Source of the DNA: Methylosinus sp. Sm6
GTDB taxonomy: Bacteria; Pseudomonadota; Alphaproteobacteria; Rhizobiales; Beijerinckiaceae
Length of the DNA stretch: 64,000 bases
Direction: 5' to 3'
Assembly (NCBI RefSeq): GCF_019802345.1
Contig: NZ_JAINDZ010000019.1
Location: forward strand, 1-64,000
Shown: positions 6,245 through 24,589 of the stretch, piece after piece
How positions within the stretch are numbered: the stretch's first letter is position 1
Layout: each line of letters opens with the position of its first letter
The notes under the pieces: model-generated
The model's input: the letters and a program-made list of their open reading frames with translations, nothing else
Database searches by the model: none
Told to the model about the DNA's origin: nothing
Program-made: the position numbers and the translations under genes

Positions 6245-7594
6245 TCATTGCGTCGAATGAGAGACACGCCAGATAACGCCATTCGCATCCTCGGTGAAGA
6301 GCAGCGCGCCATCCTTCGCCACGGCCAGCGACACCGGACGGCCCCAGACCCGCGCATCGTCCAGCACGAAGCCAGTCAGGAAATCCTGATATTCGCCGGT
6401 CGCTCTCCCATTCTCGAATATGAGCCGGATGATCTTGTAGCCCGTGCGCTTGGCGCGGTTCCAGGACCCGTGCAGAGCGATGAACGCATCGCCCGCATAA
6501 TCGGACGGAAACTGGCCGCCGTCGTAGAACGCGATGCCGAGCGGCGCCGAATGCGGTTGAATCAATAGGTCCGGCACGGTCGCCCGACCGGCGAGATCCG
6601 GCCGCTCGCCCGCATGACGCGGATCGACATGATCGCCGATATAAAGCCAGGGCCAGCCGTAGAAGGCGCCCTCGCGGACCCTCGTGGCGTAATCGGGCGG
6701 CAGATCGTCGCCGATCATGTCGCGCTCGTTGACGACGCACCAGAGCTCGTCGGTCGGCGGGCGGAAGGCCATCCCGGAACAGTTGCGCAGACCGGTCGCG
6801 AACACCCGCTTGTGACCGCCGTCCGGATCGAAGGCGAGCACATCGGCTCGCAGCAGCTCCACGCCGTCGCTCGCGCCGACGCCATTCGCCTTCTCGAGCG
6901 CGGCGACCTGCTCGGGCGATGGCTGCGAATGTCCTTCGGCGACATTCGAGCGAGAGCCGACCGCGACGAAGAGCGTCTTGCCGTCCGGCGAGAAGACGAT
7001 GTCGCGGGTCCAATGTCCGTCTCGCGGCAAATCCGAGACGACGATCTCCGCCGGGCCGGCCGCGACCAGCTCGCCCGGCCGATAAGGATAGCGCCGCACC
7101 TCCGAAACCGTCGCGACATAAAGCCATCTCGGATCGGGACCGGGCGGATAGAAGGCGAGGCCGGAAGGCCGCTCGAGGTCGCGCGCGAAAACGCGATCCG
7201 TCTCCGGCTTGGAGCCGCTCGCGTCGAGCCGGAAGGCGCGCACGCGTCCGCCAGTGCTCTCGACGACGAACACGTCGCCGTTCGGCGCGACGCGAATGAC
7301 GCGCGGGCCTTGGAGATCGGCGGCGACGACGTTCGCCATGAAGCCCGGCAGCGTGTTCGGCTGCGCGGCCTCGGGCCGCGCGGCCACTTGCGAGCGAGAG
7401 GCGGCGGGATCGCTGGCGTAAGGAGCGGGCAGGTCGCCGTTCGAAATTTTTCGTCGCACGCCCGGCGCATCGGCGCGCCAGTCGGAAAAGGCCTGCGCGC
7501 CGCTGAGCAGAGGCGCGGTCTGCGCCTCGGCGAAGTCGGAAAGCGCGAGCGTGAACACGACGCAATGGAAAATCGTCGAAAGCCGCAGCCTCAT
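6245..7594 (-). CDS. PQQ-dependent sugar (sorbosone) dehydrogenase-like protein
   Basis: A 449-residue exported protein of the soluble aldose/L-sorbosone dehydrogenase beta-propeller family, which uses pyrroloquinoline quinone in the periplasm. A signal peptide covers about residues 1-24 (cut near AEAQ). Family segments include PRVIRVAPNGDVFVVES, PSGLAFYPPG, HWTRDIVFSPDGKTLFVAVGS, GLRNCSGMAFRP and DALL-like repeats through the six-bladed fold. The ATG overlaps the stop of the upstream serine acetyltransferase gene by 4 bases (ATGA), so the two are translationally coupled and belong to one operon with the GlcG-like gene. PQQ enzymes are common in methylotrophs. The true substrate is unknown. 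Confidence 0.85.
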   Translation of the reverse strand: MRLRLSTIFHCVVFTLALSDFAEAQTAPLLSGAQAFSDWRADAPGVRRKISNGDLPAPYASDPAASRSQVAARPEAAQPNTLPGFMANVVAADLQGPRVIRVAPNGDVFVVESTGGRVRAFRLDASGSKPETDRVFARDLERPSGLAFYPPGPDPRWLYVATVSEVRRYPYRPGELVAAGPAEIVVSDLPRDGHWTRDIVFSPDGKTLFVAVGSRSNVAEGHSQPSPEQVAALEKANGVGASDGVELLRADVLAFDPDGGHKRVFATGLRNCSGMAFRPPTDELWCVVNERDMIGDDLPPDYATRVREGAFYGWPWLYIGDHVDPRHAGERPDLAGRATVPDLLIQPHSAPLGIAFYDGGQFPSDYAGDAFIALHGSWNRAKRTGYKIIRLIFENGRATGEYQDFLTGFVLDDARVWGRPVSLAVAKDGALLFTEDANGVIWRVSHSTQ

Positions 7595-8544
7595 ATCCCG
7601 CCGCCATTGTCGAAGGTCTCGATGGCGCGCGCCTGGGTGATGTTGCTCCCCGGCGGAACGCTGTGCGTGAGCCAGACATTGCCCCCGACCGACGATCCCC
7701 GGCCGATGGTGATGCGCCCGAGGATGGTCGCGCCGGCGTAGACGACCACATCGTCCTCCACGATCGGGTGACGGGGGCGGCCTTTGACGAGCGCGCCGCT
7801 CGCATCCGCCTCGAAGCGTTTCGCTCCGAGCGTGACGCCCTGATAGAGCCGCACGCGCTTGCCGATGCGCGCCGTCTCGCCGATCACGACGCCGGCGCCG
7901 TGATCGATGAAGAAGCTCGCGTCGATCTCGGCGCCGGGGTGAATGTCGATGCCGGTCTCGGAATGCGCGATCTCGGCGACGATGCGCGCGAGCATGGGCG
8001 CGCCGAGCGAAAACAGCTCATGGGCGAGGCGATGGCGCGTGACCGCGGCGATTCCGGGATAGCAGAACACGATCTCGTCGAGGCTGCGCGCCGCCGGATC
8101 GCCGTCGAAGGCGGCGCGTATGTCGGTGTCGAGGAGCGAGCGGACTTTCGGCAATGCGCCGAGGAAGGCGTCCGATATCCGCTTTGCGTCTCGCTCTTCC
8201 TCCCCGCTCTCCTCCCCTTCCGCAAAGAGCAGCAGCTCCTTGCGGATCTGCTCGGTCAGCGCGTGCAGCGCGCGCTTCAGCGTCGTCGACACGAAAGCGT
8301 CGACGGTCTCGACGGTGAGATGCGAGGGGCCGAAGTGGCGTGGATAGAGAACGGCGACGAGATCCGCGACGATGTCGGCCATCGCCGCGCGCGAGGGAAG
8401 CTCGGGAAGCACGCCGCCCTTGTAGCGACGCTTCTGCGAGGTCTTGCGCAGAGCGCGCAGCGCATCGACGACCTGATCGACCGCCGCGCTTTGCGCGTCC
8501 CCGGCCTCGGCCGGCTTCGTCCCGTCGCCGAAACGGGCGTTCAC
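7591..8544 (-). CDS. serine O-acetyltransferase (EpsC/SAT type)
   Basis: A 317-residue serine acetyltransferase. It has a helical N-terminal region (about residues 25-190) and a C-terminal left-handed beta-helix of hexapeptide repeats (TGIDIHPGAEIDASFFIDHG, then AGVVIGETARIGKRVRLYQGVTLGA). It makes O-acetylserine for cysteine synthesis in the cytoplasm. The GTG start at 8544 overlaps the stop of the GlcG-like gene by 4 bases; the open frame further upstream only shadows that gene. The long N-terminus matches the plant/EpsC-like group rather than the shorter CysE. A second, CysE-like enzyme is encoded at 34919. Its place beside a family 2A encapsulin and cysteine desulfurase suggests a dedicated role in supplying cysteine to that system. 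Confidence 0.9.
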   Translation of the reverse strand: MNARFGDGTKPAEAGDAQSAAVDQVVDALRALRKTSQKRRYKGGVLPELPSRAAMADIVADLVAVLYPRHFGPSHLTVETVDAFVSTTLKRALHALTEQIRKELLLFAEGEESGEEERDAKRISDAFLGALPKVRSLLDTDIRAAFDGDPAARSLDEIVFCYPGIAAVTRHRLAHELFSLGAPMLARIVAEIAHSETGIDIHPGAEIDASFFIDHGAGVVIGETARIGKRVRLYQGVTLGAKRFEADASGALVKGRPRHPIVEDDVVVYAGATILGRITIGRGSSVGGNVWLTHSVPPGSNITQARAIETFDNGGGI

Positions 8545-9041
8545 TTCAGCTGATCCGCGATCTTGTCGATTCCGGCCTTGGCGCAAGCCTCGTCCTTGTC
8601 GCCGCCCGGAGCGCCCGAGACGCCGACCGCGCCGATGGTCTCCTCGCCGGCCTTGATCGGCAGCGCGCCCGCAATGGCGATGACGCCGGAAAGATGAACG
8701 AGGCCGAGGCTCGGATTGTCCTTCACCCTTTGGGCGATATCGCCGGACGGCGCGCGGAAGGTGCGCGAGGTATAGGCCTTGCGCTGGCTGTTCTCGAGCG
8801 TGTGCGGAGAGGCGCCGTCGCCGCGAAGCGAGACGAGCGCTTGCCCTTCCGCGCCGACGATCGTGACGGACACGCGATATCCCTGGGCGACGCAAGCGTC
8901 ATGAGCGCCTTGCGCGACCGCGAGGGCGGCGGTGAGCGGCAGGAATTTATGCGCCGGCAGCTCGGCTCGCGCCGCGGGGGAGGCGATGAAGGCGACGCCG
9001 AGCGAAAGGAGAGCCAGATTGCGGGCGAAGAATTTGCTCAT
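8541..9041 (-). CDS. exported GlcG/HbpS-like haem-binding family protein
   Basis: A 166-residue protein of the GlcG/HbpS (DUF336) family. It begins with a signal peptide (MSKFFARNLALLSLGVAFIA, cut near ARA-EL), so it is probably periplasmic. The family core is clear: AHDACVAQGYRVSVTIVGAEG, GLVHLSGVIAIAGALPI and GAVGVSGAPGGDKDEACAKAGI. Members include haem-binding HbpS and proteins of unknown role. It is the first gene of a three-gene minus-strand operon, overlapping the serine acetyltransferase start by 4 bases. It is divergent from the XRE-cupin regulator, which may control it. Confidence 0.85.
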   Translation of the reverse strand: MSKFFARNLALLSLGVAFIASPAARAELPAHKFLPLTAALAVAQGAHDACVAQGYRVSVTIVGAEGQALVSLRGDGASPHTLENSQRKAYTSRTFRAPSGDIAQRVKDNPSLGLVHLSGVIAIAGALPIKAGEETIGAVGVSGAPGGDKDEACAKAGIDKIADQLK

Positions 9042-9154
9042 GTTCGATCCATCCGTTCGAGGATGTCGCATGCTAGCAGCATTTATATCAACTGCAAGGG
9101 TATGATTTCAGCAGCAGCCGAGGCATTGCGCAATATTAAAGGAGATTTTCGCGC

Positions 9155-9183
9155 TTGACCGCGGTGCGCCCATTCCAGATACT
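9155..9183 (+). promoter_or_regulatory. sigma-70-like promoter for the XRE-cupin gene
   Basis: TTGACC at 9155-9160 and GATACT at 9178-9183 are separated by 17 bases. A purine-rich ribosome binding site (AGAGGA) follows before the ATG at 9208. An ATTGCGCAAT palindrome at 9124-9133 upstream could be an operator for the divergent pair. Confidence 0.55.
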
Positions 9184-9207
9184 CCGCTTAGACAAGAGGA
9201 AAAATGG

Positions 9208-9828
9208 ATGACTCGAGTGGCGGGTGGACTCTTCAGGCGCGATCGTTCGTCTCCGGAGCGGCTGTCGCGGACGGTCGCGGAACGGCTCGAGCGGCTGCTC
9301 AATCGCCGTGGACGCTCGCTGGCCCGCCTGTCCGAGCAGAGCGGCATAGAAGGGGACGAGCTCGCGCGGATCGCCGCCGGACGTCAGGCTCCTTCGCTCG
9401 GCCATCTCTGGCGCATCGCCAATGCGCTCGGCGTTCCCTTCGGCAGCCTCGTCGCCTCCAAGGAACGCCAGGGCGTGCTCGTGATCCGCAAAAGCGAGCC
9501 GCAGGCGGTCGAGTCCGTCGGCGGGGCCTTCGTCTCGCGCGCGCTCTACCCCTATGACTGCCGCCGGCCGGTCGAATTCTATCACCTCACCATCGGACCC
9601 AATCACCTCGAGCGCTCCGAGGCCCATGCGCCGGGCACCAAGGAAAATCTCGTCGTCGCGCGCGGCTCGATCGAGGTCGTCGTCGGACGAGAGCCGGCGG
9701 TGCAGCTCGACGAAGGCGACGCCGTCGATTTCCTCGCCGACGTGCCGCACAGCTATCGCAATCTCGGCGTCGTTCCGGCGACGGTCTATCTCGTCATGTC
9801 CTATACGGACGCCGACGAGGAGGGGTGA
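9208..9828 (+). CDS. XRE-cupin transcriptional regulator
   Basis: A 206-residue regulator. It has an N-terminal XRE helix-turn-helix (about residues 20-80: ERLLNRRGRSLARLSEQSGI to LWRIANALGVPFGSLV) and a C-terminal cupin (about residues 120-200: GTKENLVVARGSIEVVV and LDEGDAVDFLADVPHSYRN). This architecture senses small molecules in several sulfur, amino-acid and aromatic pathways. It lies between the serine acetyltransferase operon (divergent) and the encapsulin gene (same strand), so it is a candidate regulator of either. The start is supported by AGAGGA about 8 bases upstream; an overlapping ATG 4 bases earlier is out of frame. Confidence 0.92.
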   Translation: MTRVAGGLFRRDRSSPERLSRTVAERLERLLNRRGRSLARLSEQSGIEGDELARIAAGRQAPSLGHLWRIANALGVPFGSLVASKERQGVLVIRKSEPQAVESVGGAFVSRALYPYDCRRPVEFYHLTIGPNHLERSEAHAPGTKENLVVARGSIEVVVGREPAVQLDEGDAVDFLADVPHSYRNLGVVPATVYLVMSYTDADEEG

Positions 9829-9870
9829 AGCGGCGGCGCCGGCCTCGGACAGTCCGAGCAGTAGACCGTT

Positions 9871-9899
9871 TTGATAGACGTATACAAACCAAATATATT
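9871..9899 (+). promoter_or_regulatory. promoter of the encapsulin-desulfurase operon
   Basis: TTGATA (9871-9876) and TATATT (9894-9899) are separated by exactly 17 bases in an AT-rich island that stands out in this GC-rich window. Predicted transcription start is near 9906, giving a leader of about 185 bases before the encapsulin ATG. Confidence 0.6.
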
Positions 9900-9916
9900 T
9901 GAAGAACATTGCAAAT

Positions 9917-9933
9917 GTAGAATAATTTTCTAC
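9917..9933. promoter_or_regulatory. palindrome at the encapsulin transcription start
   Basis: GTAGAATAATTTTCTAC is a perfect inverted repeat with 6-base arms and a 5-base AT-rich centre. It lies about 10 bases downstream of the predicted start of transcription, a normal place for a repressor site. Which regulator binds it is unknown; the Rrf2 protein (13396) and XRE-cupin protein (9208) are the local candidates. Confidence 0.5.
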
Positions 9934-9977
9934 TACGAATACTATTGATCGCCGCGGGGCAATCTCGTAGGGATGAC

Positions 9978-10000
9978 GAGCGGCGTCCAAATCGCCGCTC
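9978..10000 (+). promoter_or_regulatory. hairpin in the encapsulin mRNA leader
   Basis: GAGCGGCG and CGCCGCTC form a perfect 8-base stem with a 7-base loop. There is no T-tract after it, so it is a leader structure rather than a standard terminator. Confidence 0.45.
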
Positions 10001-10091
10001 CTTTCGATGACGGCCGGACGTTATTCGGCGCCGCGCGGCGAGCATCCGCCGGCGCCGGGCGCCTCGTTCAATCGCCCCGAGGTATGATTCA

Positions 10092-11039
10092 ATGACCACC
10101 GAACCCGAAGTCCGACGGACGCTGAGCGAATCCGCGGCCCGTCAGCTCGCCAATGCGACGAAGACGAGAGCGCAATGGTCGGGCATAACGCCGCGCTGGC
10201 TCGTGTCCTTCCTGCCATGGACGCCGGTCGAGGCCGGCATTTATCGCCTCAACCGCGTGCGCGAGGATCGCGCGCTCACCGACGCCGACGTGACCTGCAG
10301 CCCGGCCCGCGACCGCGACGCCGATCTGCCCGAGACCTTCGTCGATTACGAGGATCATCCGCGCGAATATTCGATGAATGCGGTGACCACGGTTCTAGAC
10401 GTGCAGACGCGCGTCTCCGATCTCTACAGCCATCCCTACGATCAGATTCAGGAGCAGGTTCGTCTGCTCACCGAAAAGGTCAAGGAGAAGCAGGAGAGCG
10501 AGCTCATCAACAATCCGGAATATGGATTGCTCGCCAATGCGCATCCGTCGATGAAGATCAGGACGCGCACGGGCGCTCCCACGCCCGACGACCTCGACGA
10601 GCTCATCGCCCGCGTCTGGAAGGAGCCGGCCTTTTTCCTCGCCCATCCGCGCGCCATCGCCTCCTTCGGCCGCGAATGCACGCGCCGCGGCGTGCCGCCG
10701 CCGACCGTGACCTTGTTCGGCTCGCCCTTCCTCACCTGGCGCGGCCTGCCGCTGGTGCCGAGCGACAAGCTGTTCATCGACGAGGCGGGCAAGACCAATA
10801 TTCTGCTGCTGCGCACGGGCGAGAAGAAGCAGGGCGTCATCGGCCTGTTCCAGCCGGGCATTCCGGGCGAGGTGGCGCCGAGCCTCTCGGTGCGCTTCAT
10901 GGGCATCAACCGCAAGGCGATCGCCTCCTATCTCATCTCGCTCTATTGCTCGGCGGCCGTGCTGACGCATGACGCGCTCGGCGTGCTCGAGGGCGTCGAG
11001 GTCGGCAAATATCACGATTATCCCGACAAATATGTCTGA
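10092..11039 (+). CDS. family 2A encapsulin shell protein (SrpI-like)
   Basis: A 315-residue HK97-fold shell protein of the family 2A encapsulins, the group of SrpI from Synechococcus elongatus (306 residues). Recognisable segments are LPWTPVEAGIYRLNRV near the N-terminus, the E-loop/P-domain region FVDYEDHPREYSMNAVTTVL and VSDLYSHPYDQIQEQVRLL, and the C-terminal GVEVGKYHDYPDKYV. It would assemble into a protein compartment in the cytoplasm. Known family 2A shells package a cysteine desulfurase whose gene is adjacent, and exactly that gene follows here. GAGGT precedes the ATG. The gene has its own promoter and leader and ends about 68 bases before the desulfurase start. Confidence 0.93.
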   Translation: MTTEPEVRRTLSESAARQLANATKTRAQWSGITPRWLVSFLPWTPVEAGIYRLNRVREDRALTDADVTCSPARDRDADLPETFVDYEDHPREYSMNAVTTVLDVQTRVSDLYSHPYDQIQEQVRLLTEKVKEKQESELINNPEYGLLANAHPSMKIRTRTGAPTPDDLDELIARVWKEPAFFLAHPRAIASFGRECTRRGVPPPTVTLFGSPFLTWRGLPLVPSDKLFIDEAGKTNILLLRTGEKKQGVIGLFQPGIPGEVAPSLSVRFMGINRKAIASYLISLYCSAAVLTHDALGVLEGVEVGKYHDYPDKYV

Positions 11040-11106
11040 CGCCGATGCGCTGGCGGCCGCGTCGCCGGCGCGCGCATTGTCGAGACTGCTACTTAAGAGA
11101 GCGATC

Positions 11107-13305
11107 ATGTCTTCTGCGCTTTCCCAGCCCGCGGGTTTCGGCGCGACGTCTCCGGACGCGCCGTCGCAAGAGGCTCTGACGCGCCATGGCGCGCCGGCCT
11201 TTCCCGATCCGGCCATGATCGCCCGCATCGCCAACGCCTTTTTCCAGGCCTCGCCCGATGAGCAGCCGACGACGCTCTCGCCCGGCGCGCCGATCGTGCC
11301 GCCCATGCTGCCCGAAGCGCCGGCGCCCTCCGTCGTCACCAGCGTCGCGCCGCTCGCGCCGGCGCGCCCGCCTCTGGGCCCGCCCGATCTTCCGCCGACG
11401 ACGATCCCCTCCATGGCGCCGACGCCCAATCTCTCCGCGCCTTCCGCGCCGATCGGCCTGCAACCGGCGGTTCCGCCCTATGGCCTCTCGGATGTTCCGC
11501 AGCCGGGCGCATCGGCCGGCGCCTTCGAGCCGGGCAGCCCGGCCGCGGCGACGATCGACTATTCGGCGATCCCCGGCTCTTTGACTCCGCTCGGCGGCGC
11601 GTCGCCCGTGCAGGCGCCGGCGCCCTATGGCGGCTATGATCCGGGCTCGGTTCCGGGAGGCGTGAAAGCCACGCCGGCCGACAATCTCTATTTTCTGCAT
11701 GATCGGTCGCCCGTCGCCGCCCCGTCCGACCCGTCCCTCTCGCTCGTCGACCGCCATGACGTCGACGCGCCGGCAGCGGGCGGCGCCGGCGCTCCCGGCG
11801 CCGCGCCGGAGACCTTCGCCTATTCGGGCCCGTCGGCAGCCGATCCGCATCGCCTCTCCGATAGCGTCGCGCTCGGGACCCCGAACATCGCCCTGCCGGC
11901 TCTCTCCGGCCAGGAGCGCAGTTTCGCGCCGGGCGCGGCCGGACCGGCGGCGACCGACTCTCTTTATTTCCTGGACCGCGTCGGGGCGGTCCCCGCCGCG
12001 CCGGTCCCCGCTGCGGAGGAGCCGCAGGGCTTTGCGCCGCAGCTCGTCGCCCATGCGCCGGCGAGCCGCGGCGCGTTCGATCCTTACGCCGTGAAACGCG
12101 ACTTCCCGATCCTGCAGCAGCAGGTGCACGGCAAGCCGCTGGTCTGGCTCGACAACGCCGCCACCACGCAGAAGCCGCAGGCGGTCATCGACCGGCTCGC
12201 GCATTTCTACGAATATGAGAACTCCAACATCCATCGCGCCGCTCATGCGCTGGCGGCGCGATCGACCGACGCCTATGAGGCGGCGCGCGAGAAGGTGCGG
12301 CGCTTCCTGAAAGCGCCGTCGGTGAAGAACATCATCTTCGTGCGCGGAGCGACGGAAGCGATCAATCTCGTCGCGCAGGCCTGGGGCCGGCGCAATGTGC
12401 AGGCGGGCGACGAGATCGTCGTCTCCTTTCTCGAGCATCACGCCAATATCGTGCCCTGGCAGCAGCTCTGCGCCGAAAAAGGCGCGCGGCTGCGCGTCGC
12501 GCCGGTGGATGATCGCGGCCAGATCATTCTCGAGGAATACGAGAAGCTGCTGAACCCCAAGACGCGCATCGTCGCGGTGACGCAGGTTTCCAATGCGCTC
12601 GGCACGGTGACGCCCGTACGCGACATCACGGCGATGGCGCATCGCCATGGCGCGCGCGTGCTGATCGACGGCGCGCAGTCGGTCTCGCATATGCCGGTCG
12701 ACATGCCGGCGATCGGCTGCGATTTCTTCGTCTTCTCCGGTCATAAGGTGTTCGGCCCGACCGGCATCGGCGTCGTCTATGGCAGGGACGAGGTCCTCGC
12801 CGATATGCCGCCCTGGCAGGGCGGCGGCAATATGATCGCCGACGTCACCTTCGAGAAGACCATCTATCAGGGGGCGCCCGAGCGCTTCGAGGCGGGCACC
12901 GGCAATATCGCCGACGCCGTCGGCCTCGGCGCCGCGCTCGATTATGTCGAATCGATCGGCATGGAGATCATCGCCCGCTATGAGCACGACCTGCTCGTCT
13001 ACGCGACCGAGAAGATGCGGCTCGTGCCGGGGCTGAAATTCATCGGCACGGCGGCGGAGAAGGCCAGCGTGCTCTCCTTCGTGCTCGACGGCCACCGCAC
13101 CGAGGACGTGGGCAAGGCGCTCGACCGTGAAGGAATCGCCGTGCGCGCCGGGCATCATTGCGCGCAGCCGATACTGCGCCGCTTCGGCCTCGAGGCGACC
13201 GTGCGTCCCTCGCTCGCCTTCTACAACACTTGCGCGGATGTCGACGCGCTCGTCGCCGCGCTGCTGCGCCTGCAGAGCGGAGGCGCCGCCCGCGTTCGTG
13301 CGTGA
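11107..13305 (+). CDS. encapsulated SufS-type cysteine desulfurase cargo
   Basis: A 732-residue protein with two parts. Residues 1 to about 320 are low-complexity and rich in Pro, Ala and Gly, the disordered cargo-loading region of family 2A encapsulin cargo. Residues from about 322 are a complete SufS/CsdA-type cysteine desulfurase. The PLP Schiff-base lysine is Lys547 (FSGHK) and the catalytic cysteine is Cys685 (RAGHHCAQP). It takes sulfur from cysteine, leaving alanine. Two related motifs, DNLYFLHDRSP (192-202) and DSLYFLDR (284-291), sit in the disordered part and are probable shell-docking elements. ATG 11107 is chosen because AAGAGAG lies just upstream; ATG 11032, overlapping the encapsulin stop, would add 25 residues. 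Confidence 0.92.
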   Translation: MSSALSQPAGFGATSPDAPSQEALTRHGAPAFPDPAMIARIANAFFQASPDEQPTTLSPGAPIVPPMLPEAPAPSVVTSVAPLAPARPPLGPPDLPPTTIPSMAPTPNLSAPSAPIGLQPAVPPYGLSDVPQPGASAGAFEPGSPAAATIDYSAIPGSLTPLGGASPVQAPAPYGGYDPGSVPGGVKATPADNLYFLHDRSPVAAPSDPSLSLVDRHDVDAPAAGGAGAPGAAPETFAYSGPSAADPHRLSDSVALGTPNIALPALSGQERSFAPGAAGPAATDSLYFLDRVGAVPAAPVPAAEEPQGFAPQLVAHAPASRGAFDPYAVKRDFPILQQQVHGKPLVWLDNAATTQKPQAVIDRLAHFYEYENSNIHRAAHALAARSTDAYEAAREKVRRFLKAPSVKNIIFVRGATEAINLVAQAWGRRNVQAGDEIVVSFLEHHANIVPWQQLCAEKGARLRVAPVDDRGQIILEEYEKLLNPKTRIVAVTQVSNALGTVTPVRDITAMAHRHGARVLIDGAQSVSHMPVDMPAIGCDFFVFSGHKVFGPTGIGVVYGRDEVLADMPPWQGGGNMIADVTFEKTIYQGAPERFEAGTGNIADAVGLGAALDYVESIGMEIIARYEHDLLVYATEKMRLVPGLKFIGTAAEKASVLSFVLDGHRTEDVGKALDREGIAVRAGHHCAQPILRRFGLEATVRPSLAFYNTCADVDALVAALLRLQSGGAARVRA

Positions 13306-13322
13306 GCGCCCCACCCCGGCCC

Positions 13323-13340
13323 TCCCCCGCTTCGCGGGAG
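13323..13340 (+). repeat. small hairpin after the desulfurase gene
   Basis: CTCCC-CGC-TTC-GCGGGAG-type imperfect hairpin within 20 bases of the desulfurase stop. It lacks a T-tract and resembles the short palindromes scattered between Rhizobiales genes. Confidence 0.35.
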
Positions 13341-13359
13341 AGGTTGCCCATGAAGCTTT

Positions 13360-13370
13360 CATAGTCTATG
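13360..13370. promoter_or_regulatory. CATAG-T-CTATG palindrome before the Rrf2 gene
   Basis: Perfect 5-base arms around one base, followed by a further CATAG half-site at 13376-13380. It lies 26-36 bases upstream of the Rrf2 start, so it is a candidate autoregulatory operator. Confidence 0.45.
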
Positions 13371-13395
13371 GTCTTCATAGACGGAGAGCGGCGCT

Positions 13396-13839
13396 TTGTT
13401 GACCAAAAAGGGCAAATACGGCCTCAAGGCGATGGCGCATCTCGCGCGATTTGCTCCCGGGCGCCCTGTGCCCGTGCTGGAGATCGCGACGACTCAGAAC
13501 ATCCCGAAAAAATTCCTCGACGCGATCCTCTGCGAGCTGCGCAACTGCGGCTATGTCGTCTCGAAAATGGGAAAGGGCGGCGGATATACGCTCGCCCGGC
13601 CGGCGGACCAAATCACCGTCGGCGATATCGTTCGCGCGCTCGACGGCCCGCTCGCCCCGCTGCCCTGCGCCAGCAAGACCCGCTATCGCCCGTGTGACGA
13701 CTGCGGCAATGTCGAGCGCTGCGCGGTGAGGCTGGTGATGCGCGACGCCCAGCGCGCGCTGTCCGGCGTGCTCGACAATTGCACGCTCGCGCGCGCCTGC
13801 GAATTGGCCGAGACCATTCCGCTCTGCTATCACATTTGA
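13396..13839 (+). CDS. Rrf2-family transcriptional regulator with a Cys cluster
   Basis: A 147-residue Rrf2 protein. The winged helix-turn-helix covers about residues 1-85 (KKGKYGLKAMAHLA, IPKKFLDAILCELRNCGYV, KGGGYTLARPADQITVGDIV). Four cysteines (Cys91, Cys100, Cys103, Cys109) form a likely Fe-S or redox-sensing cluster; the spacing differs from IscR (C-x5-C-x5-C). Rrf2 proteins commonly control Fe-S assembly, cysteine synthesis or iron genes. The start is TTG (13396 or the adjacent TTG 13399), with GGAGAG about 8 bases upstream; no in-frame ATG exists nearby. It follows the encapsulin-desulfurase pair by 90 bases and precedes the exported redox cluster, so it is the leading candidate regulator of both. 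Confidence 0.9.
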   Translation: MLTKKGKYGLKAMAHLARFAPGRPVPVLEIATTQNIPKKFLDAILCELRNCGYVVSKMGKGGGYTLARPADQITVGDIVRALDGPLAPLPCASKTRYRPCDDCGNVERCAVRLVMRDAQRALSGVLDNCTLARACELAETIPLCYHI

Positions 13840-13973
13840 AAGCGCGCGCCAGCCCTCGCCGCAAAGCCCCGCCCCCTCGCACATCTTCTCTCTGATCGGC
13901 AGCCGAGCGCCGACGTCGAGGGGCCGCGCGTCGTGCGCGGCCGCTCCGTAGGCCCCGAGGATTTTTTGTTTTA

Positions 13974-13990
13974 TACCTATCTAATAGGTA
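13974..13990. promoter_or_regulatory. TACCTAT-CTA-ATAGGTA palindrome before the redox cluster
   Basis: Perfect 7-base arms with a 3-base centre inside an AT-rich stretch (13961-14005) upstream of the DUF1549 gene. It shares the CTAT/ATAG core with sites at 13360, 21942 and 24590. Confidence 0.5.
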
Positions 13991-14119
13991 GACATTATAC
14001 GAATTCGAGCCTAGAGTTTGCCGACTGCCCGCCACAAAGAGACCTCTCTCTGCGAGCGCGGCGCCCCATGTCGCCGAAGAAACTCCAAGCCTTTTCGAAC
14101 CGATCGAGGTTGCGCGCAT

Positions 14120-16456
14120 ATGACGAAGACCCTGAGACGATCCGCGTTCACTTTGCTGCTGAGCGCCTCGGCGAGCGTCCTCGCCCTCGCCGAAGAAAAC
14201 AAGTCCGCCTCTCCCGGCGCCGCCAGTGAGCCGCCGGCGCGCGCAGCCAGGCTCCATTGGGCCTGGCAGCCCGTTCAAGCGCCCGCCATTCCGGCCGTCG
14301 ACCAGAAGCAATGGGTGCGTTCGCCCCTCGACGCATTCGTTCTCGCCAAGATCCGCGCCAACGGACTGACGCCGTCGCCGGATACCGATCGCGCGACCTT
14401 CATCCGCCGCGCGACGCTCGACGCCTGGGGAGTTATTCCGACGCCGGAGGAGGTCGTCGCCTTCGTCGAGGATCAGAGCCCCGAGGCCTATGAGAAAGTG
14501 ATCGACCGGCTCCTCGCCTCGCCGCGCTACGGAGAGCGTCAGGCTCGCTTCTGGCTGGATCTCGCCCGCTATGCGGACAGCTCGGGCTTTCAGAACGACA
14601 CTGCGCGGCCGAACATGTTTCGCTATCGCGACTATGTGATCAAGGCCTTCAACGAGGACAAGCCCTATTCGCAATTCATCCGCGAGCAGATCGCGGGCGA
14701 CGAGATCGCGCCGGGCAATCAGGACGTGCTGGTCGCGACCGGGTTTCTCGCCGGCTATCCGGACAACAGCAATTCGCGCGACCTCGTGCAGCGCAAATAT
14801 CAGATCACGACCGACATGACCGACACGGTCGGTCAGGCGATCCTCGGCACGACGGTCGGCTGCGCGCGCTGCCACAATCACAAGAGCGACAAGTTCACGC
14901 AGAAGGACTATTTTTCGCTGCAGGCGTTTTTCGCCAATACCGCCTTCGATGAGAAAATCTCCGCCCGCAAAGGCGAGGTGGAGACCGCCTTCGAGAAGGA
15001 ACGGGCGATCTACGACGAGGCGACCAAGGCCATCCGCGCCCGTCAGAAAGAGATTATCGATTCGGTCCGCGAGGCGGCGTACAAATATCACAAGGAGCGC
15101 TATCTCACCGACAGCCGCGAGTCGATCTTCAAGCCGAAGGATCAATGGACCGCGCTCGATCGCTGGGTCAATCATCGGCTCGACGCGGTGACCGACGACA
15201 CTCAGCTCGGAGCCTATCTGCGCTACACAGCGGACGACAAGACCTCGCCGGATCACAATGCGGAGATCGTCAAGAAGGCCGAGGAATATCTGAAGCTCAC
15301 CGCCGAGCTGCGCAAGTTTCAAAATTTGCGTCCGACCAAGGGCTCTCTCAACTACACCGCGGCGACCGAGCTCGGCCACAGCGACGCGCCGCCGACTCAT
15401 GTTCTCTTCGTCGGCAATCACGAGAAGCCGCTCGAAGAAGTGCCGCCAGCCTTTCCGGAGGCGTTGACCAGCGAGAAGCCGAACATCAAGCCGACCGCGA
15501 CATCGTCCGGCCGCCGCACGGCGCTCGCCGATTGGCTCGTGAGCGACAGAAATCCGCTCACCGCGCGCGTGTTCGTCAATCGCGTGTGGAACCAATATTT
15601 CGGCAAGGGCATCGTCGGCACGGTGAGCGACTTCGGCAAGGCCGGCGACAAGCCGACCAATCAGGAGCTGCTCGATTTCCTGGCCTACAGCTTCGTGCAG
15701 GACGGCTGGAGCGTGAAGAAATTGCATCGCGCAATTCTTCTCTCCTCCACCTATCGTCAATCCTCCGCCCATCGCGAGGATGTCGCCAAGGCCGACCCCG
15801 ACAACAAGCTCGTCGCCGTGTTCCCGCGCAAGCGACTCGAAGCGGAAGAAATTCGCGACTCGATTCTCGTCGCCTCGGGCAAGCTGAACGAGCAGATCGG
15901 CGGCCCGAGCGTGTTTCCGCCCATTCCGGCCAATCTGACCGGCGGCGGCAACTTCAACTTCGATCCGTCCTGGACGACGGCCAAAGACAAGAAGGATTTC
16001 AACCGCCGCAGCCTCTACATCTTCACGCGGCGAAGCCTGCCCTATCCGCTGCTCGAAACCTTCGACATGGCAAATTCGCAGCAGATCCACAGCAAGCGTG
16101 ACGTCACCACGACGCCGCTGCAGGCGCTGACGCTCTACAACAGCGACATCGTGTTCGAATGGTCGCAGGCGCTCGCCGGACGCGTGATCGAAGAGGCCGG
16201 CGCCGACGAAACGGCGCAGATCGACAGGCTCTATCTCGTGCTGTTCGGCCGCAAGCCTTCGGACGCCGAGCGCTCGGCTCTGCTCGCCTTTCTCGATCGG
16301 CATCGCAGCACGATCGCCGGCAAAGGAGAGGACGGCAAGCTCTCGCTGGCCTTGCCGATCGTGAAGGCCAAATTCGTCGATCCGCTGCGCGCATCGGCCT
16401 TCGTCGATCTCGTGCATACCGTCGTGAACAGCAATGATTTCGTCTACCGCTTCTGA
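14120..16456 (+). CDS. exported DUF1549/DUF1553 protein with a haem c motif
   Basis: A 778-residue protein with a signal peptide (MTKTLRRSAFTLLLSASASV). It has an N-terminal DUF1549 domain (about residues 65-270: SPLDAFVLAKIRANGLTPSP, FIRRATLDAWGVIPTPEEV, RYADSSGF) and a C-terminal DUF1553 domain (about 460-750: RTALADWLVSDRNPLTARVF, NRVWNQYFGKGIVGTVSDFG). A CARCH haem-attachment motif is at residues 248-252. The pair of domains is abundant in Planctomycetes and usually found beside DUF1501 proteins, as here; the activity of neither is established. It probably works in the periplasm as an electron-carrying component. It begins the exported redox cluster, with the DUF1501 gene 28 bases downstream. 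Confidence 0.88.
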   Translation: MTKTLRRSAFTLLLSASASVLALAEENKSASPGAASEPPARAARLHWAWQPVQAPAIPAVDQKQWVRSPLDAFVLAKIRANGLTPSPDTDRATFIRRATLDAWGVIPTPEEVVAFVEDQSPEAYEKVIDRLLASPRYGERQARFWLDLARYADSSGFQNDTARPNMFRYRDYVIKAFNEDKPYSQFIREQIAGDEIAPGNQDVLVATGFLAGYPDNSNSRDLVQRKYQITTDMTDTVGQAILGTTVGCARCHNHKSDKFTQKDYFSLQAFFANTAFDEKISARKGEVETAFEKERAIYDEATKAIRARQKEIIDSVREAAYKYHKERYLTDSRESIFKPKDQWTALDRWVNHRLDAVTDDTQLGAYLRYTADDKTSPDHNAEIVKKAEEYLKLTAELRKFQNLRPTKGSLNYTAATELGHSDAPPTHVLFVGNHEKPLEEVPPAFPEALTSEKPNIKPTATSSGRRTALADWLVSDRNPLTARVFVNRVWNQYFGKGIVGTVSDFGKAGDKPTNQELLDFLAYSFVQDGWSVKKLHRAILLSSTYRQSSAHREDVAKADPDNKLVAVFPRKRLEAEEIRDSILVASGKLNEQIGGPSVFPPIPANLTGGGNFNFDPSWTTAKDKKDFNRRSLYIFTRRSLPYPLLETFDMANSQQIHSKRDVTTTPLQALTLYNSDIVFEWSQALAGRVIEEAGADETAQIDRLYLVLFGRKPSDAERSALLAFLDRHRSTIAGKGEDGKLSLALPIVKAKFVDPLRASAFVDLVHTVVNSNDFVYRF

Positions 16457-16484
16457 AAAGGCTCCTCGATAGGAGGGAATCCGG

Positions 16485-17936
16485 ATGCTCATCAAGACTA
16501 CACGTCGCGAATGGCTGCGCAATGCGGCCTATGGCGTCGGCGGCTTCGCCGTCGGCGGAATGATGCCCGGCGGCGGCTGGTTCGGCGCGCCGCAGGCCAA
16601 TGCGGCCGCTTTCCTCGACCCGCTCGCGCGCAAGGAGCCGCATTTCCCCGCCAAGGTGAAATCGGTGATCTGGCTGCATATGGACGGCGCGCCCAGCACG
16701 ATCGATCTCTATGACTACAAGCCCGAGCTCGAGCGGCTCGCGGGACAGGAGATTCCCGCCTCCTTCCTCGAAGGGATCAAGACCAGCACGCAGGGCGGCG
16801 TCGGCAAGCTGTTCGCCTCCAAGCGCACATGGAAGCAATATGGCGAGAGCGGCGCCTGGTTCTCCGATTGGCTGCCCAATCTCGCGCAGCACGCCGACAA
16901 GCTCACTTTCATCAAGTCCAGCGTCACCATCGGCGCGACGCATGATATTTCGATCTTGAAGCTCAACACGGGCGATGTGAATCCTGGACGTCCGTCGCTC
17001 GGCTCCTGGGTGGCCTATGCGCTCGGCGCCGCCAATCCCGATCTGCCGCCTTACGTCGTGCTTTATGGCGGAAAGCGTGAGCCGCGCGCCGGCTCGGTGA
17101 ATTGGAGCTCGGGCTTCCTGCCGGCCGTCTATCAGGGCACGGCGTTCCGCCCCGGCGCGCAGCCGATCCTCTATCAGGCGCCGCCGGAGCTGATCGGCCT
17201 GCAGCAGCAGCGCGAGAGCCTCGATCTCCTCAAGACGCTCAATGATCTGCGGTCCGCAGCGCGTCCGGAGGATTCCGAGCTCGCCGCGCGCACCAATTCC
17301 TATGATCTCGCCTATCGCATGGAGGCGACGGCGCCGGAGGCGGTCGATCTCGCGAAGGAGTCCGCCGCGACCAAGGCGCTCTACGGTATCGACCAGGACG
17401 CGACCCAGGACATGGGCACCGTGCTGCTGCGCGCGCGCCGCCTCGTGGAGCGCAATGTGCGCTTCGTCCATGTGGTGTCGGGGCCAGTCGAGCAGGCGGG
17501 CGACGATGATCGGAGCTGGGACGCGCATCGCCAGCTCGAGAAAAATCACTCGGCCCATACGCGCGCGATCGACAAGCCGGTCGCAGGCCTGCTCGCCGAT
17601 CTCGAGGCCCGCGGCCTGCTCGATCAGACGCTCGTCGTGTGGACCTCTGAATTCGGACGCACGCCCTATGGCCAGAGCGGCGACGGCCGCGACCACAATC
17701 CGTGGGGCTATACGCAATGGCTCGCTGGCGGCGGAATCAAGCACGGCCTCACTTATGGACGCACCGACGAGCTCGGCTTGAAGACGGTCGAAAATCCGGT
17801 CGACACTTATGATCTGCACGCGACCGTGCTGCAGCTTCTCGGCCTCGATCATCTGAAGACGATCTATCATCGCGCCGGACGCGCCGAACGTCCGACGGTC
17901 GTCTACGGAAAGGTCGTCGGCGACATTCTCGCCTGA
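16485..17936 (+). CDS. Tat-exported DUF1501 protein
   Basis: A 483-residue DUF1501 protein, a family related to the alkaline phosphatase/sulfatase superfamily. The N-terminus TTRREWLRNAAYGVGGFAVG is a twin-arginine signal, so it is exported folded, perhaps with metal bound. Family segments include SVIWLHMDGAPSTIDLYDYK, LVVWTSEFGRTPYGQSGDGR and the Asp/His-rich DHNPWGYTQWLAGGG, resembling metal ligands of that superfamily. A strong AGGAGG precedes the start. It partners the DUF1549/DUF1553 protein just upstream, a gene pair that recurs in bacteria. A hydrolytic role on phosphate or sulfate esters is inferred only from the superfamily. Confidence 0.88.
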   Translation: MLIKTTRREWLRNAAYGVGGFAVGGMMPGGGWFGAPQANAAAFLDPLARKEPHFPAKVKSVIWLHMDGAPSTIDLYDYKPELERLAGQEIPASFLEGIKTSTQGGVGKLFASKRTWKQYGESGAWFSDWLPNLAQHADKLTFIKSSVTIGATHDISILKLNTGDVNPGRPSLGSWVAYALGAANPDLPPYVVLYGGKREPRAGSVNWSSGFLPAVYQGTAFRPGAQPILYQAPPELIGLQQQRESLDLLKTLNDLRSAARPEDSELAARTNSYDLAYRMEATAPEAVDLAKESAATKALYGIDQDATQDMGTVLLRARRLVERNVRFVHVVSGPVEQAGDDDRSWDAHRQLEKNHSAHTRAIDKPVAGLLADLEARGLLDQTLVVWTSEFGRTPYGQSGDGRDHNPWGYTQWLAGGGIKHGLTYGRTDELGLKTVENPVDTYDLHATVLQLLGLDHLKTIYHRAGRAERPTVVYGKVVGDILA

Positions 17937-18062
17937 GCCCAGCGCCGGGGAGGGACGACGGCGTCGTCCGCGCTCTTCTCCGGCCTCCGCCGATCGTTTC
18001 GTCCTCGATGGCGCGATCCATGGCGGGGCGCCGCGTCCTCCGGTCTCCATGTTTGTTACGAC

Positions 18063-18473
18063 ATGAAAAACAAGACAAGCTATCGCAACATGCTTCTGCG
18101 CGTCGGATCTTTCGTCCTCGTCCTCGCGACTCCTGCGCTGGCGTTGGACCTTCATGATTACGACGACGATCTGATGCGCGATCTCGACAGAACCATCAAG
18201 TTCTTCGAGCCGGACATCACCGCCCAGAATGCGTCGGCGGCCAAGGAAGACGCCGCCATCCTGCTCGAGGGTTTCCGCTATACGGAAGACTATTTCGGCA
18301 AGAAAGGCGTCGCGGACGCTGTGGCGATCTCCCGCGACGGCTCGAAGCTCGTCGATGTGGTGCTGCGCAACGTCGAAAAAGGCGATTTCGACTCTGCGGC
18401 CGCCGCCGCGCGCGATACGACGCAGGTCTGCAAATCCTGCCACGAACTCTACAAACCCCGCCTGGCCCGATGA
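18063..18473 (+). CDS. small exported class II-type cytochrome c
   Basis: A 136-residue protein with a signal peptide (MLLRVGSFVLVLATPALA region) and a single haem-c motif CKSCH at residues 123-127, very near the C-terminus. That placement is the class II (cytochrome c'-like) pattern, with a helical bundle in front. It would be a periplasmic electron or gas-ligand carrier. The ribosome binding site is weak, and an internal ATG at residue 10 is an alternative start. It lies 127 bases after the DUF1501 gene and 20 bases before the dienelactone hydrolase gene. Confidence 0.85.
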   Translation: MKNKTSYRNMLLRVGSFVLVLATPALALDLHDYDDDLMRDLDRTIKFFEPDITAQNASAAKEDAAILLEGFRYTEDYFGKKGVADAVAISRDGSKLVDVVLRNVEKGDFDSAAAAARDTTQVCKSCHELYKPRLAR

Positions 18474-18492
18474 AACCGAAGCGAGACGAACC

Positions 18493-19383
18493 ATGACGAG
18501 GAAGACTGCGCGTGATTTTCCGCCGGACGTTTTGAAGCTGTTCGATCAGTTCGTGCATGGCGACATCGATCGCCGCGGCTTCGTCGACGGCGCGAAGCGG
18601 CTGACGATCGGCGCCGCGGCGGCGGGAGCCTTTCTCGACGAGCTGCTGCCGCGCTTCGCCGAAGCGGCGCAAGTCGAGAAAAACGACCCGCGCATCGCTG
18701 GCGAGACGCTCGAAATTCCATCACCCGATGGATATGGAAAAGTGAAGGGCTATTTCGTCCATCCGGCGAAGGTCGAGGGCAAGCTGCCGACCGTGCTGGT
18801 GATTCACGAGAACCGCGGGCTCAATCCCCATATCGAGGATATCGCCCGCCGCCTCGCGCTCGAGAATTTCGTCGTTCTCGCGCCGGACGCGCTCGCGCCG
18901 CTCGGCGGCTATCCCGGCGACGAAGACAAGGCGCGCGCGCTGTTTCCGCAGCTCGATCAGGCGAAGACGCGCAACGACTTCATCGCCGCTTATGGCGCAC
19001 TGAAGAATTGCCCGATCGGCAACGGCAAGGTGGGCGCGATCGGCTTTTGCTATGGCGGCGGCGTCGTGAATTTTCTCGCGACGAAGCTTCCCGATCTCGC
19101 GGCAGGCGTGCCGTTCTATGGCGCGCAGCCCGCTGCCGAGGAGGTGGCGAAGATCAAAGCGCCGCTGCTCATCCATTATGCCGAGAGCGACGAACGCATC
19201 AACGCCGGCTGGCCGGCCTATGAAGCGGCGCTCAAAGCCGCGGGAACGCATTACCAAACTTTCATCTATCCGGGCGTTCAGCACGGCTTCAACAATGATA
19301 CGACTCCGCGCTATGATCAGGCCGCCGCCGCGCTCGCCTGGAAACGCTCCGTCGATTTCTTCAACGCCCATCTTCGGGCGTAA
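18493..19383 (+). CDS. dienelactone hydrolase family protein
   Basis: A 296-residue dienelactone hydrolase-like alpha/beta hydrolase. The nucleophile elbow is GFCYGG, with Cys as nucleophile as in the family; the acid is in AESDERI and the His in VQHGFNND. The N-terminus (FVHGDIDRRGFVDGAKRLTI, then GAAAAGAFLDELL) is a Tat-like leader as seen in YghX-type hydrolases, so export is likely. The reaction on dienelactone itself is not implied: many members act on other esters or lactones. It sits between two cytochrome genes, with short gaps (19 and 27 bases), in an apparent operon. Confidence 0.88.
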   Translation: MTRKTARDFPPDVLKLFDQFVHGDIDRRGFVDGAKRLTIGAAAAGAFLDELLPRFAEAAQVEKNDPRIAGETLEIPSPDGYGKVKGYFVHPAKVEGKLPTVLVIHENRGLNPHIEDIARRLALENFVVLAPDALAPLGGYPGDEDKARALFPQLDQAKTRNDFIAAYGALKNCPIGNGKVGAIGFCYGGGVVNFLATKLPDLAAGVPFYGAQPAAEEVAKIKAPLLIHYAESDERINAGWPAYEAALKAAGTHYQTFIYPGVQHGFNNDTTPRYDQAAAALAWKRSVDFFNAHLRA

Positions 19384-19410
19384 TCACCACGCAAGAGAAA
19401 GGTCGAATCG

Positions 19411-19926
19411 ATGCGAGCGCCGACGCTGCTCATCTCCCTCCTACTCTCCGCCGCGGCCGCCGAGGCCGCAGACGCTCCGGCGCCGCCGACCGCCGCCGCC
19501 GCGCCGGCCGTGACTCCGGCCAATGATCCCGCCTACACCTACAAGACGCTTCGCCTCAACCGCGCGGCCTTCGACGCGCTGGCCGCCAAGCCGGAGAATT
19601 TGCTGGTCCTCGATATCCGCCGTCCCGACGAGCTCACCAAAAACGGCGGCTTCCCCGTCTATCTCAGCATTCAAACCGCCGATGTGCAGAAAAGCCTGTC
19701 CTTCATTCCACGCGATCGGCTCATCGTCACCGTGTCCAACCGCGCGCATCGCGCCGGAGCGGTCGGCGATATTCTCACCGGCCTCGGCTATCGCGTGGTC
19801 GGCGCGATCGGCGTTCTCGACTATCAGGACGAAGGCGGAACCTTGACGAAAATCACGCCTCCTCCACCGAAGACCGCCACATCCTCGACCGAAGCGCCAT
19901 CCGCCGCTGCGGGAGGCGCCAAATGA
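19411..19926 (+). CDS. exported rhodanese-like protein without catalytic Cys
   Basis: A 171-residue exported protein: signal peptide to about residue 20, a Pro/Ala linker, then a rhodanese-like domain (about 40-145: NLLVLDIRRPDELTKNGGFP and the loop VTVSNRAHRAGAVGDILTGLGY). The position of the rhodanese active-site Cys is Ser in SNRAHRAG, so sulfur transfer through a persulfide is not expected. It may bind anions or act as a scaffold. Its stop overlaps the peroxiredoxin start by 4 bases, so the two are translationally coupled. The C-terminal tail is Pro/Thr/Ala-rich. Confidence 0.8.
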   Translation: MRAPTLLISLLLSAAAAEAADAPAPPTAAAAPAVTPANDPAYTYKTLRLNRAAFDALAAKPENLLVLDIRRPDELTKNGGFPVYLSIQTADVQKSLSFIPRDRLIVTVSNRAHRAGAVGDILTGLGYRVVGAIGVLDYQDEGGTLTKITPPPPKTATSSTEAPSAAAGGAK

Positions 19927-20489: not shown

Positions 20490-20516
20490 TCTGCTTCACC
20501 GAGAGAAGGAACGATT

Positions 20517-21023: not shown

Positions 21024-21039
21024 CGCGCGCGACCGGCGA

Positions 21040-21789: not shown

Positions 21790-21819
21790 AGATGCGACTC
21801 CCTCCCCGATGAACTTTTT

Positions 21820-21845
21820 AGATCGCGCGTCGCGCGATCTTTTTT
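21820..21845 (+). terminator. rho-independent terminator after cytochrome b561
   Basis: AGATCGCGCG and CGCGCGATCT are perfect inverted arms around one base, followed directly by TTTTT. It closes the exported redox cluster. Confidence 0.8.
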
Positions 21846-21941
21846 GCGTCGAGTGTGTCGCGTTCGCAACGGCCGGCGAGATTCTCCGCTTTGCTTTCCG
21901 ATTCCGCGCGCCCGTCGATGACTTTGGGCTTGACCGCAGCT

Positions 21942-21970: not shown

Positions 21971-21986
21971 GGCGACGGAGAGTGGG

Positions 21987-24529: not shown

Positions 24530-24589
24530 GTCGCGACAGGCTTCTCGGCGCCGTCAATTCGCCCCACCGAGACGCGTCTCGTAAATAAG

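Follow-up and report, generated by a model that had tools for sequence, protein, structure and literature searches.

A 64,000-nucleotide stretch of Methylosinus sp. Sm6 (contig NZ_JAINDZ010000019.1; hereafter the window, meaning this whole stretch) carries a family 2A encapsulin shell gene, a cysteine desulfurase gene behind it and an Rrf2-family regulator gene behind both. The question raised by this locus is what governs the compartment and to which state of the cell it responds. An earlier note on this DNA had proposed a sulfur-handling compartment under the control of cysteine or sulfur state, based on five genes beginning at 7591, 9208, 10092, 11107 and 13396, all of which are present at about those places. 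We consider it probable, from sequence comparisons, that the encapsulin belongs to a shell-cargo-Rrf2 cassette whose predicted Rrf2 sites are shared with serine acetyltransferase and uptake genes, and that it responds to cysteine or sulfur state. The compartment itself is a curated, known pairing; the cassette and the shared sites are the part worth following.

The host appears to be a methanotroph, as had been claimed. A single PmoA-family match (362.2 bits) occurs in its genome (5.13 Mb, 162 contigs), outside the contig of the window, and its shell shares 98% identity with the one from Methylosinus sp. Ce-a6.

The shell and its desulfurase cargo

The features of the two genes are as follows.

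10092..11039, + strand: family 2A encapsulin shell (SrpI-like), 315 amino acids (encap_f2a, PF19307, phmmer)
11107..13305, + strand: SufS-type cysteine desulfurase cargo with a long N-terminal domain, 732 amino acids (f2_encap_cargo1, phmmer)
11218..11244, + strand: cargo-loading motif 1, IARIANAFF, resembling LARLANEFFS of Nichols et al.
11686..11697, + strand: first copy of cargo-loading motif 2, LYFL, resembling AASPYYFLDG of Nichols et al.
11962..11973, + strand: second copy of cargo-loading motif 2, LYFL (from the sequence)
12745..12747, + strand: Lys codon of SGHK, residue 547 (from the sequence, aligned with 8kg1)
13159..13161, + strand: Cys codon of GHHCAQP, residue 685 (from the sequence, aligned with 8kg1)

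The shell passes the NCBIfam model encap_f2a (515.9 bits, cut-off 380) and the Pfam SrpI-like model PF19307 (352.1 bits, cut-off 22.8). By sequence, the closest solved shell is the cargo-loaded family 2A encapsulin of Acinetobacter baumannii 118362 (8t6r; phmmer expect value (E) 1.9e-136); SrpI is matched at E 1.4e-132 (6x8m). The earlier note had suggested comparing a predicted structure with SrpI. Family 2 shells were indeed the best fold matches, accounting for all seven Foldseek hits at E <= 0.001 (8t6r at 61% identity); the predicted model is of low confidence (mean predicted local distance difference test score, pLDDT, 52.3), and the fold assignment is therefore carried by sequence. The shell also exceeds the cut-off of encap_f2b (433.3 bits, cut-off 400), with a best stretch spanning only model positions 208-449 of 450. 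The cyclic nucleotide (cNMP)-binding domain that marks family 2B is absent from the 315 residues, in which SrpI-like is the sole Pfam domain. By these comparisons 10092-11039 is a family 2A encapsulin shell, with icosahedral self-assembly predicted.

The cargo passes NCBIfam f2_encap_cargo1 (877.9 bits, cut-off 800) as well as the SufS family model (565.6 bits, cut-off 475.1); the proposed pairing of shell and desulfurase is thus confirmed by curated NCBI models on both sides. Its desulfurase domain matches the solved structure 8kg1 (E 3.1e-190), and SGHK and GHHCAQP align with that structure, so the catalytic motifs are kept. By the standards of the SufS family, K547 is the expected pyridoxal phosphate (PLP) lysine and C685 the expected catalytic cysteine. 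The N-terminus, which had been called disordered, comprises about 325 residues ahead of the SufS domain and appears proline- and alanine-rich by eye. It contains motif 1 once and motif 2 twice, as compared with the N-terminal loading motifs of family 2A desulfurase cargo, LARLANEFFS and AASPYYFLDG, given by Nichols et al. 2021 (PMC8049743). Among 147 rows compared, duplicates counted, 125 have an upstream frame longer than 100 residues; of these 125, motif 1 occurs in 79 and motif 2 in 93, with two copies in 31. We therefore classify 11107-13305, on its sequence, as a family 2A cysteine desulfurase cargo whose encapsulation is predicted.

Such pairings are well established: Andreas and Giessen (PMC8346489) count 1281 family 2A operons with this type of cargo. 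A close comparison is SrpI-CyD of Synechococcus elongatus PCC 7942 (Nichols et al., PMC8049743), which resembles the present system in shell sequence and fold, in a SufS-type cargo with N-terminal loading motifs and in its link to sulfur metabolism genes, and which is raised by sulfate deprivation. The Methylosinus locus differs from it in having an Rrf2 regulator behind the cargo and two copies of motif 2. For the A. baumannii system, elemental sulfur storage is reported to have been described by Benisch et al. (Science Advances, 2024). In cyanobacteria, by the title of another study, CysR controls plasmid-borne genes that are regulated by sulfur. The srpI gene is one of these.

By analogy, the shell would self-assemble around the desulfurase, drawn in by the motifs of its long N-terminal tail, and the enclosed enzyme would take sulfur off cysteine, which may then be held or passed on. 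If it is passed on, the enzyme may serve to deliver persulfide to an acceptor outside, whether for cluster assembly or for another use, rather than as a store. We regard this as a serious possibility that falls short of an even chance. It draws on the SufS type of the cargo and on the rhodanese acceptors proposed for such loci by Andreas and Giessen (PMC8346489). Set against it are further PF00266 proteins in the Sm6 genome, in surroundings that read like SUF and NIF from the sequences of their open reading frames (ORFs), so that another delivery enzyme may not be needed. In addition, no rhodanese turned up among the genes annotated, no search having been aimed at rhodanese.

The linked Rrf2 regulator and its predicted sites

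Three features connect the compartment with a regulator.

13396..13839, + strand: linked Rrf2-family regulator, TTG start, 147 amino acids, with C91, C100, C103 and C109 (PF02082)
9860..9880, + strand: predicted Rrf2 operator in the shell promoter, AGTAGACCGTTTTGATAGACG, top motif match of the 64 kb
13363..13383, + strand: predicted Rrf2 operator in the rrf2 promoter, holding the perfect inverted repeat GTCTATG-N5-CATAGAC at 13364-13382

We compared ten Methylosinus genomes, the window's included, eight of which have the shell (G, C and L numbers below denote genomes, contigs and loci). An Rrf2 gene follows the cargo in all eight, at 69-82% identity to the window's in the other seven, and the two shell-free genomes have only Rrf2 paralogues of at most 66% identity. 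Shell, cargo and Rrf2 are a constant unit in the genus. Counts over genomes, here and below, concern orthologues by descent and are not independent trials. Second family 2A shell-cargo pairs (shell identity 87-88%) are found in G001:C2 and G002:C7 (L139, L140), on another contig and accompanied by CysK- and serine acetyltransferase-type genes; the 19 kb of sequence fetched for each pair contains no Rrf2 gene.

The cassette is rarer outside the genus. Of the 149 genomes in the wider family sample, 34 give a shell match at E 1e-60; for eight of them (58-61% identity, match only from residue 74-78 on) the shell is probably of family 2B. At the thresholds of those searches, the linked Rrf2 occurs in two of 30 other shell-bearing genomes (G096 and G120, both of genus g18), and it is also present in L008, likewise from outside Methylosinus. 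Genera g6 and g9 (L205-L209) combine family 2B-like shells with a desulfurase carrying YYFL, and the shell frames of two further ones, G090 and G017, each have one stop. Related shell stretches were confirmed in at least 534 genome contig stretches, the best 80 of which include Rhodoblastus, Labrys, Rhodopseudomonas, Azospirillum and Azotobacter. Shells of this family are common in non-methanotroph relatives too.

The regulator matches PF02082 at 132.1 bits (cut-off 30). It had been described as having four cysteines; in fact it has nine, and C91, C100, C103 and C109 are the four found in 51 of the 52 rows of an alignment, counting that of the window. In a tree of these 52 proteins, nine encapsulin-linked rows, all situated downstream of encapsulin cargo, form one clade with support 100/98, which the G003 protein adjoins at weaker support (90/56). 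This clade is apart from the group containing a second Rrf2 of the Sm6 genome. The gene for the latter lies on contig C76 (L130, 8254-10494) together with an Lrp-type gene and a PLP-enzyme gene, which we read as a cysteine synthase (CysK) gene; a relative in G107, at 55% identity, scores above the cut-off of the curated CysK model. An orthologue of this CysK-linked Rrf2 is encoded in all ten genus genomes, the CysK neighbour having been checked in Sm6 and G007.

The operator motif was built from the rrf2 promoters of seven genus genomes and scanned over 19 kb per locus and 64 kb for the window. A first motif of 15 sites, shell promoters among them, was circular with respect to the shell and was discarded in its favor. 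In all seven scanned regions the shell promoter is the best site after the rrf2 site itself. When the window's own rrf2 site is left out and the motif of the six other genomes is used, 9860 (shell) and 13363 (rrf2) are the two highest-scoring sites in the 64 kb. For each of the seven genomes in turn, with its own rrf2 site left out, the 260 bases upstream of the shell were also shuffled 500 times; no shuffle scored as high as the real sequence. By way of background, the 333 kb of further sequence fetched contains two sites of at least 21 bits. At the two loci of genus g18 that have the Rrf2 gene, the best match is the rrf2 promoter (19.4 and 25.4 bits; 0 of 300 shuffles), and the shell promoters are weaker (15.6 and 18.0 bits; 2 and 1 of 300 shuffles). 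In six of the seven rrf2 promoters TTGAC occurs at the same position, 55 bases upstream of the start and ahead of the operator; the window's lacks it.

A pattern written out from these sites, TAYNGTTYTTRTAGACG, is matched exactly ten times across the ten genomes, each time in the promoter of a shell or rrf2 gene. Five further matches have one mismatch, three of them in such promoters. The window's own two sites differ from it by two mismatches, at which tolerance 99 matches compare with 78 for the reversed control. These counts show rarity elsewhere rather than independence, because the pattern was derived from these sites. Taken together, the sites suggest that the linked Rrf2 would bind AGTCTAY-N7-RTAGACG-type sequences in its own and the shell promoter.

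Predicted sites at sulfur genes and the candidate signal

Like sites also stand before sulfur genes elsewhere in the genomes. G001 and G006 gave the first indication of a site upstream of serine acetyltransferase (SAT). Six more genus genomes were then compared. In five, the best match of the 4.7-5.5 kb stretch lies directly upstream of the SAT gene; in the sixth, G009, SAT follows an HbpS-like frame and has no site. Stand-alone SAT genes have the site at rank 1 of the fetched stretch in seven of seven cases (15.1-20.7 bits; 0-2 of 300 shuffles), and SAT genes behind HbpS or CysK (in the window, G009, G096, G001:C2, G002:C7, G065 and G107) score -3.5 to 7.6 bits. Other SAT loci vary: 18.4 bits in G120 (rank 2), 8.2-12.1 at three Methylocystis loci, 7.1 in L008 and none in G026.

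Uptake genes are represented as well. The Sm6 genome has a second exact site (17.7 bits) just before the gene of a sulfonate-binding-type protein, which is followed by the sulfite dehydrogenase SoxC (594.9 bits, cut-off 420). The shell locus of G107, a Rhodoblastus (L237, 3030-18234), also encodes sulfate uptake, cysteine synthase, SAT and a sulfonate-type uptake pair; its three best sites score 29.8 bits before the sulfonate-type gene, 16.4 before the sulfate-binding gene and 15.5 before the shell (2 of 300 shuffles). The first of these is the strongest motif match seen outside the genus.

The core RTCTAY-N7-RTAGAY has 22 exact matches in the ten genomes and seven for the reversed control pattern. 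Seven of the 14 sites inspected are at the encapsulin locus (six rrf2 promoters and one HbpS promoter). One precedes the sulfonate-binding-type gene, one lies between two NtaA/DmoA-family monooxygenase genes in G003, two precede a TonB receptor gene near SAT (G001, G006), and one lies 422 bases from another Rrf2 gene. Another is the only exact site of G009 (motif score 12.0 bits) and stands in front of a relocated operon of PSCyt-type genes, described below. The exact site of G002:C9 agrees with the two TonB sites both in its letters and in its distance to SAT. No recognised sulfur genes were found in the ORF lists around the single-mismatch sites of G002:C6 and G008:C18.

These shared predicted sites support a sulfur-state regulon that includes the encapsulin. 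The linked Rrf2, or a close paralogue such as the one beside the cysteine synthase gene, would bind at SAT and sulfur-uptake genes, and the compartment would be made as part of the response to cysteine or sulfur state. The sulfur link drawn in the earlier note is upheld in this form, through the motif shared by shell, rrf2, unlinked SAT, the sulfonate-type gene with sulfite dehydrogenase and sulfate uptake in G107; the XRE-cupin and SAT neighbours are weaker evidence than it had assumed. The presence of uptake genes favors induction under sulfur shortage, the behaviour described for Synechococcus SrpI.

Several observations weigh against this interpretation. The linked Rrf2 passes neither the curated CymR model (76.0 bits, cut-off 195) nor the curated IscR model (73.5 bits, cut-off 207.55). 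A convincing site is missing at two of 11 loci with the linked Rrf2: in the eighth genome, G003, both sites are weak (10.0 bits at rrf2, 14.7 at the shell), and L008 has no recognisable site (6.3 and 7.1 bits). Motif-like sites conversely precede shells without the linked Rrf2 (L014, 24.0 bits; L239, 23.2 bits), and the SAT and PSCyt sites are present in G008, which lacks the encapsulin Rrf2. The window's own SAT has no site (0.7 bits). The SsuA-type proteins behind sites are below the SsuA cut-off of 163.5 (86.1 in Sm6, 87.4 in G107). Inspection covered 14 of the 22 exact sites, and one inspected site (G004, C5) precedes an apparent tyrosyl-tRNA synthetase gene, named from sequence only. Finally, the motif is AT-rich within a GC-rich genome, and orthologous promoters are non-independent trials.

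Some of these points bear on which protein reads the sites. The operators may be read mainly by another Rrf2 paralogue, for example the one beside cysteine synthase, with the encapsulin-linked Rrf2 partly redundant; we judge this unlikely, yet it deserves weight. The persistence of SAT and PSCyt sites in G008 implies that a paralogue may be the real binder, an orthologue of the CysK-linked Rrf2 is encoded in all ten genus genomes, and the related sites of L014 and L239 are at shell promoters of Rrf2-less loci. Against this, promoters of several relatives of the CysK-linked Rrf2 show, by eye, GTGGAC-like half sites, one letter off GTAGAC, and the strongest sites of the window are precisely the shell and rrf2 promoters.

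Other points concern the signal. CymR, an Rrf2-family regulator of Bacillus and Staphylococcus, has CysK as its partner (PMC2869319). The Methylosinus regulator resembles CymR in family and cysteine context, in the paralogue beside a cysteine synthase-type gene and in its match to the CymR structure 2y75, which is among its best solved matches, but differs in its low score on the curated model. Since CymR works with CysK in Firmicutes, CysK or O-acetylserine are natural candidates for the signal. CymR is not known to have the four conserved cysteines of the linked Rrf2.

With those cysteines, the Rrf2 may sense iron-sulfur state. The same compartment could be controlled by an IscR- or RirA-like regulator that senses iron-sulfur cluster or redox state, with the encapsulin serving against iron-sulfur or oxidative stress, an explanation to which we give a rather low probability, below that of the paralogue. 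The regulator shares its sequence family and a cysteine-rich C-terminal part with IscR, whose model it matches at the 73.5 bits given above, and C103 and C109 fall on alanines of the Escherichia coli IscR variant 4hf1. We take these alanines to replace C98 and C104, two cysteines that hold the cluster in IscR. Genes for HbpS, cytochrome c', redoxin and b561 near the encapsulin also fit this explanation. However, the same four cysteines occur in the CysK-linked paralogues, and the motif sites precede SAT, sulfonate-type and sulfate uptake genes. The linked Rrf2 gene is not beside isc or suf genes. The contig of Sm6 that has the SUF-like genes (C96, genes at about 44-54 kb, named from ORFs) has only a one-mismatch site, about 143 kb away from them. 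The cysteine spacing of IscR also differs from that of the linked Rrf2.

Neighbouring genes and the place of the cassette

The remaining features surround the cassette.

7591..8544, - strand: serine O-acetyltransferase (EpsC/CysE type), start overlapping the HbpS stop (NCBIfam EPS_EpsC)
8541..9071, - strand: HbpS-like protein, member of the PSCyt block (PF03928, 106.8 bits; synteny)
9208..9828, + strand: XRE-cupin regulator (HTH_3 and Cupin_2), placed in the PSCyt block rather than the encapsulin cassette (Pfam, synteny)
9917..9933, no strand: second inverted repeat of the shell promoter, GTAGAATAATTTTCTAC, in a block conserved across eight promoters
13972..13992, no strand: inverted repeat before the PSCyt operon, TATACCTATCTAATAGGTAGA, not scored by the rrf2 motif
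14018..16456, + strand: PSCyt2-PSD1 (DUF1549/DUF1553) protein, first gene of the downstream block (Pfam, synteny)
16485..17936, + strand: DUF1501 protein, second gene of the PSCyt block (Pfam, synteny)

The SAT gene is present as the earlier note had claimed (EPS_EpsC 160.6 bits, cut-off 150; cysE 163.3 bits, under its cut-off of 210.65), with a shorter extent: the listed ORF, 7591-8895, is too long, and the start is most likely GTG 8544. As this codon overlaps the stop of the HbpS-like gene, SAT would be the second gene of an HbpS-SAT unit. Its linkage to the shell as a genus trait is rejected, given that the close homologue (65-84% identity) is unlinked to the main shell locus in all seven other shell-bearing genus genomes. 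In G003 a distant SAT relative (34%) lies 3 kb from the shell, behind the encapsulin-locus Rrf2 (L138, 4454-5359).

The XRE-cupin regulator is also real, but it does not appear to be part of the encapsulin system. That it might be the main shell regulator was considered because a near full-length gene is directly upstream of the shell in six of eight genus loci, with relatives (27-45% identity) around nine of 79 shell loci outside Methylosinus, within the stretches fetched. In G009, however, only its C-terminal half is left (residues 106-206; L133, 7817-8538), beside an integrase-like stretch that is under the Pfam cut-off (24.2 bits, cut-off 26.5), and G003 has no XRE-cupin beside the shell; shell, cargo and Rrf2 are in place in both. 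In the shell-free G008 the genes for HbpS, XRE-cupin, PSCyt, DUF1501 and those after them form an unbroken series, an arrangement that resembles the locus lacking the cassette. On the evidence of these three genomes we rejected this explanation, which we now hold to be very improbable. G120 has a CysK-SAT-shell-cargo-Rrf2 block, adjoined by rather than enclosed in a separate HbpS-XRE-Rrf2-PSCyt block. From the arrangements in G008, G009, G003 and G120, XRE-cupin and HbpS belong to the PSCyt block. The XRE-cupin gene is paired with another Rrf2 in G018, G058, G084, G107 and G120, and a regulatory role near PSCyt-block genes is possible.

The second repeat of the shell promoter is unlikely to be an XRE site, because G003 retains the block around it despite lacking an XRE gene. 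The repeat GTAGAATAATTTTCTAC is degraded in three of the eight shell promoters (L136-L138). It is followed, within 9917-9960, by AATACTATTGAT, which is kept in seven of eight (L133 has AATGCTATTGAT) and is possibly a core promoter or a second operator.

Downstream, the block at 14018-25407 comprises genes for PSCyt2-PSD1, DUF1501, a dienelactone-hydrolase-family protein (YghX model 404.5 bits, under the cut-off of 460), an unknown protein, AhpC/TSA, cytochrome c', cytochrome b561 and a TonB receptor. Its order is kept in several relatives and, up to the b561 gene, in the encapsulin-free G008. The PSCyt frame has one internal stop in G008 and in the relocated copy of G009. Orthologous PSCyt promoters of five relatives (L132, L134-L137) and of G008 have TTTGTAGACTT- or TTTTTTGTAGACTT-type sites. 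The PSCyt and DUF1501 families are better known from planctomycetes.

A broader and more tentative reading, to which we would give somewhat less than even weight, unites these elements. Paralogous Rrf2 regulators, one beside cysteine synthase and one in the cassette, may govern a sulfur regulon with operators at the shell-cargo genes, SAT, sulfonate and sulfate uptake genes and the PSCyt/DUF1501/redoxin/cytochrome/TonB block; this block would then be an unrecognised organosulfur scavenging system. A duplicated cysteine regulator would then have been captured by the encapsulin and would travel with it in Methylosinus and near relatives.

Searches for encapsulin with methanotroph, Methylosinus or Rrf2 returned nothing on the subject, judged by titles and abstract openings with few subscription papers covered, and the main texts of PMC8346489 and PMC8049743 make no mention of Rrf2. 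Which signal turns on family 2A encapsulins, and hence whether their role is to store a surplus of sulfur or to ration a scarce supply, is a question that a regulator with predicted sites common to genes of known purpose would make testable in a culturable methanotroph genus. The shared sites may in addition provide a lead to the function of the PSCyt and DUF1501 families.

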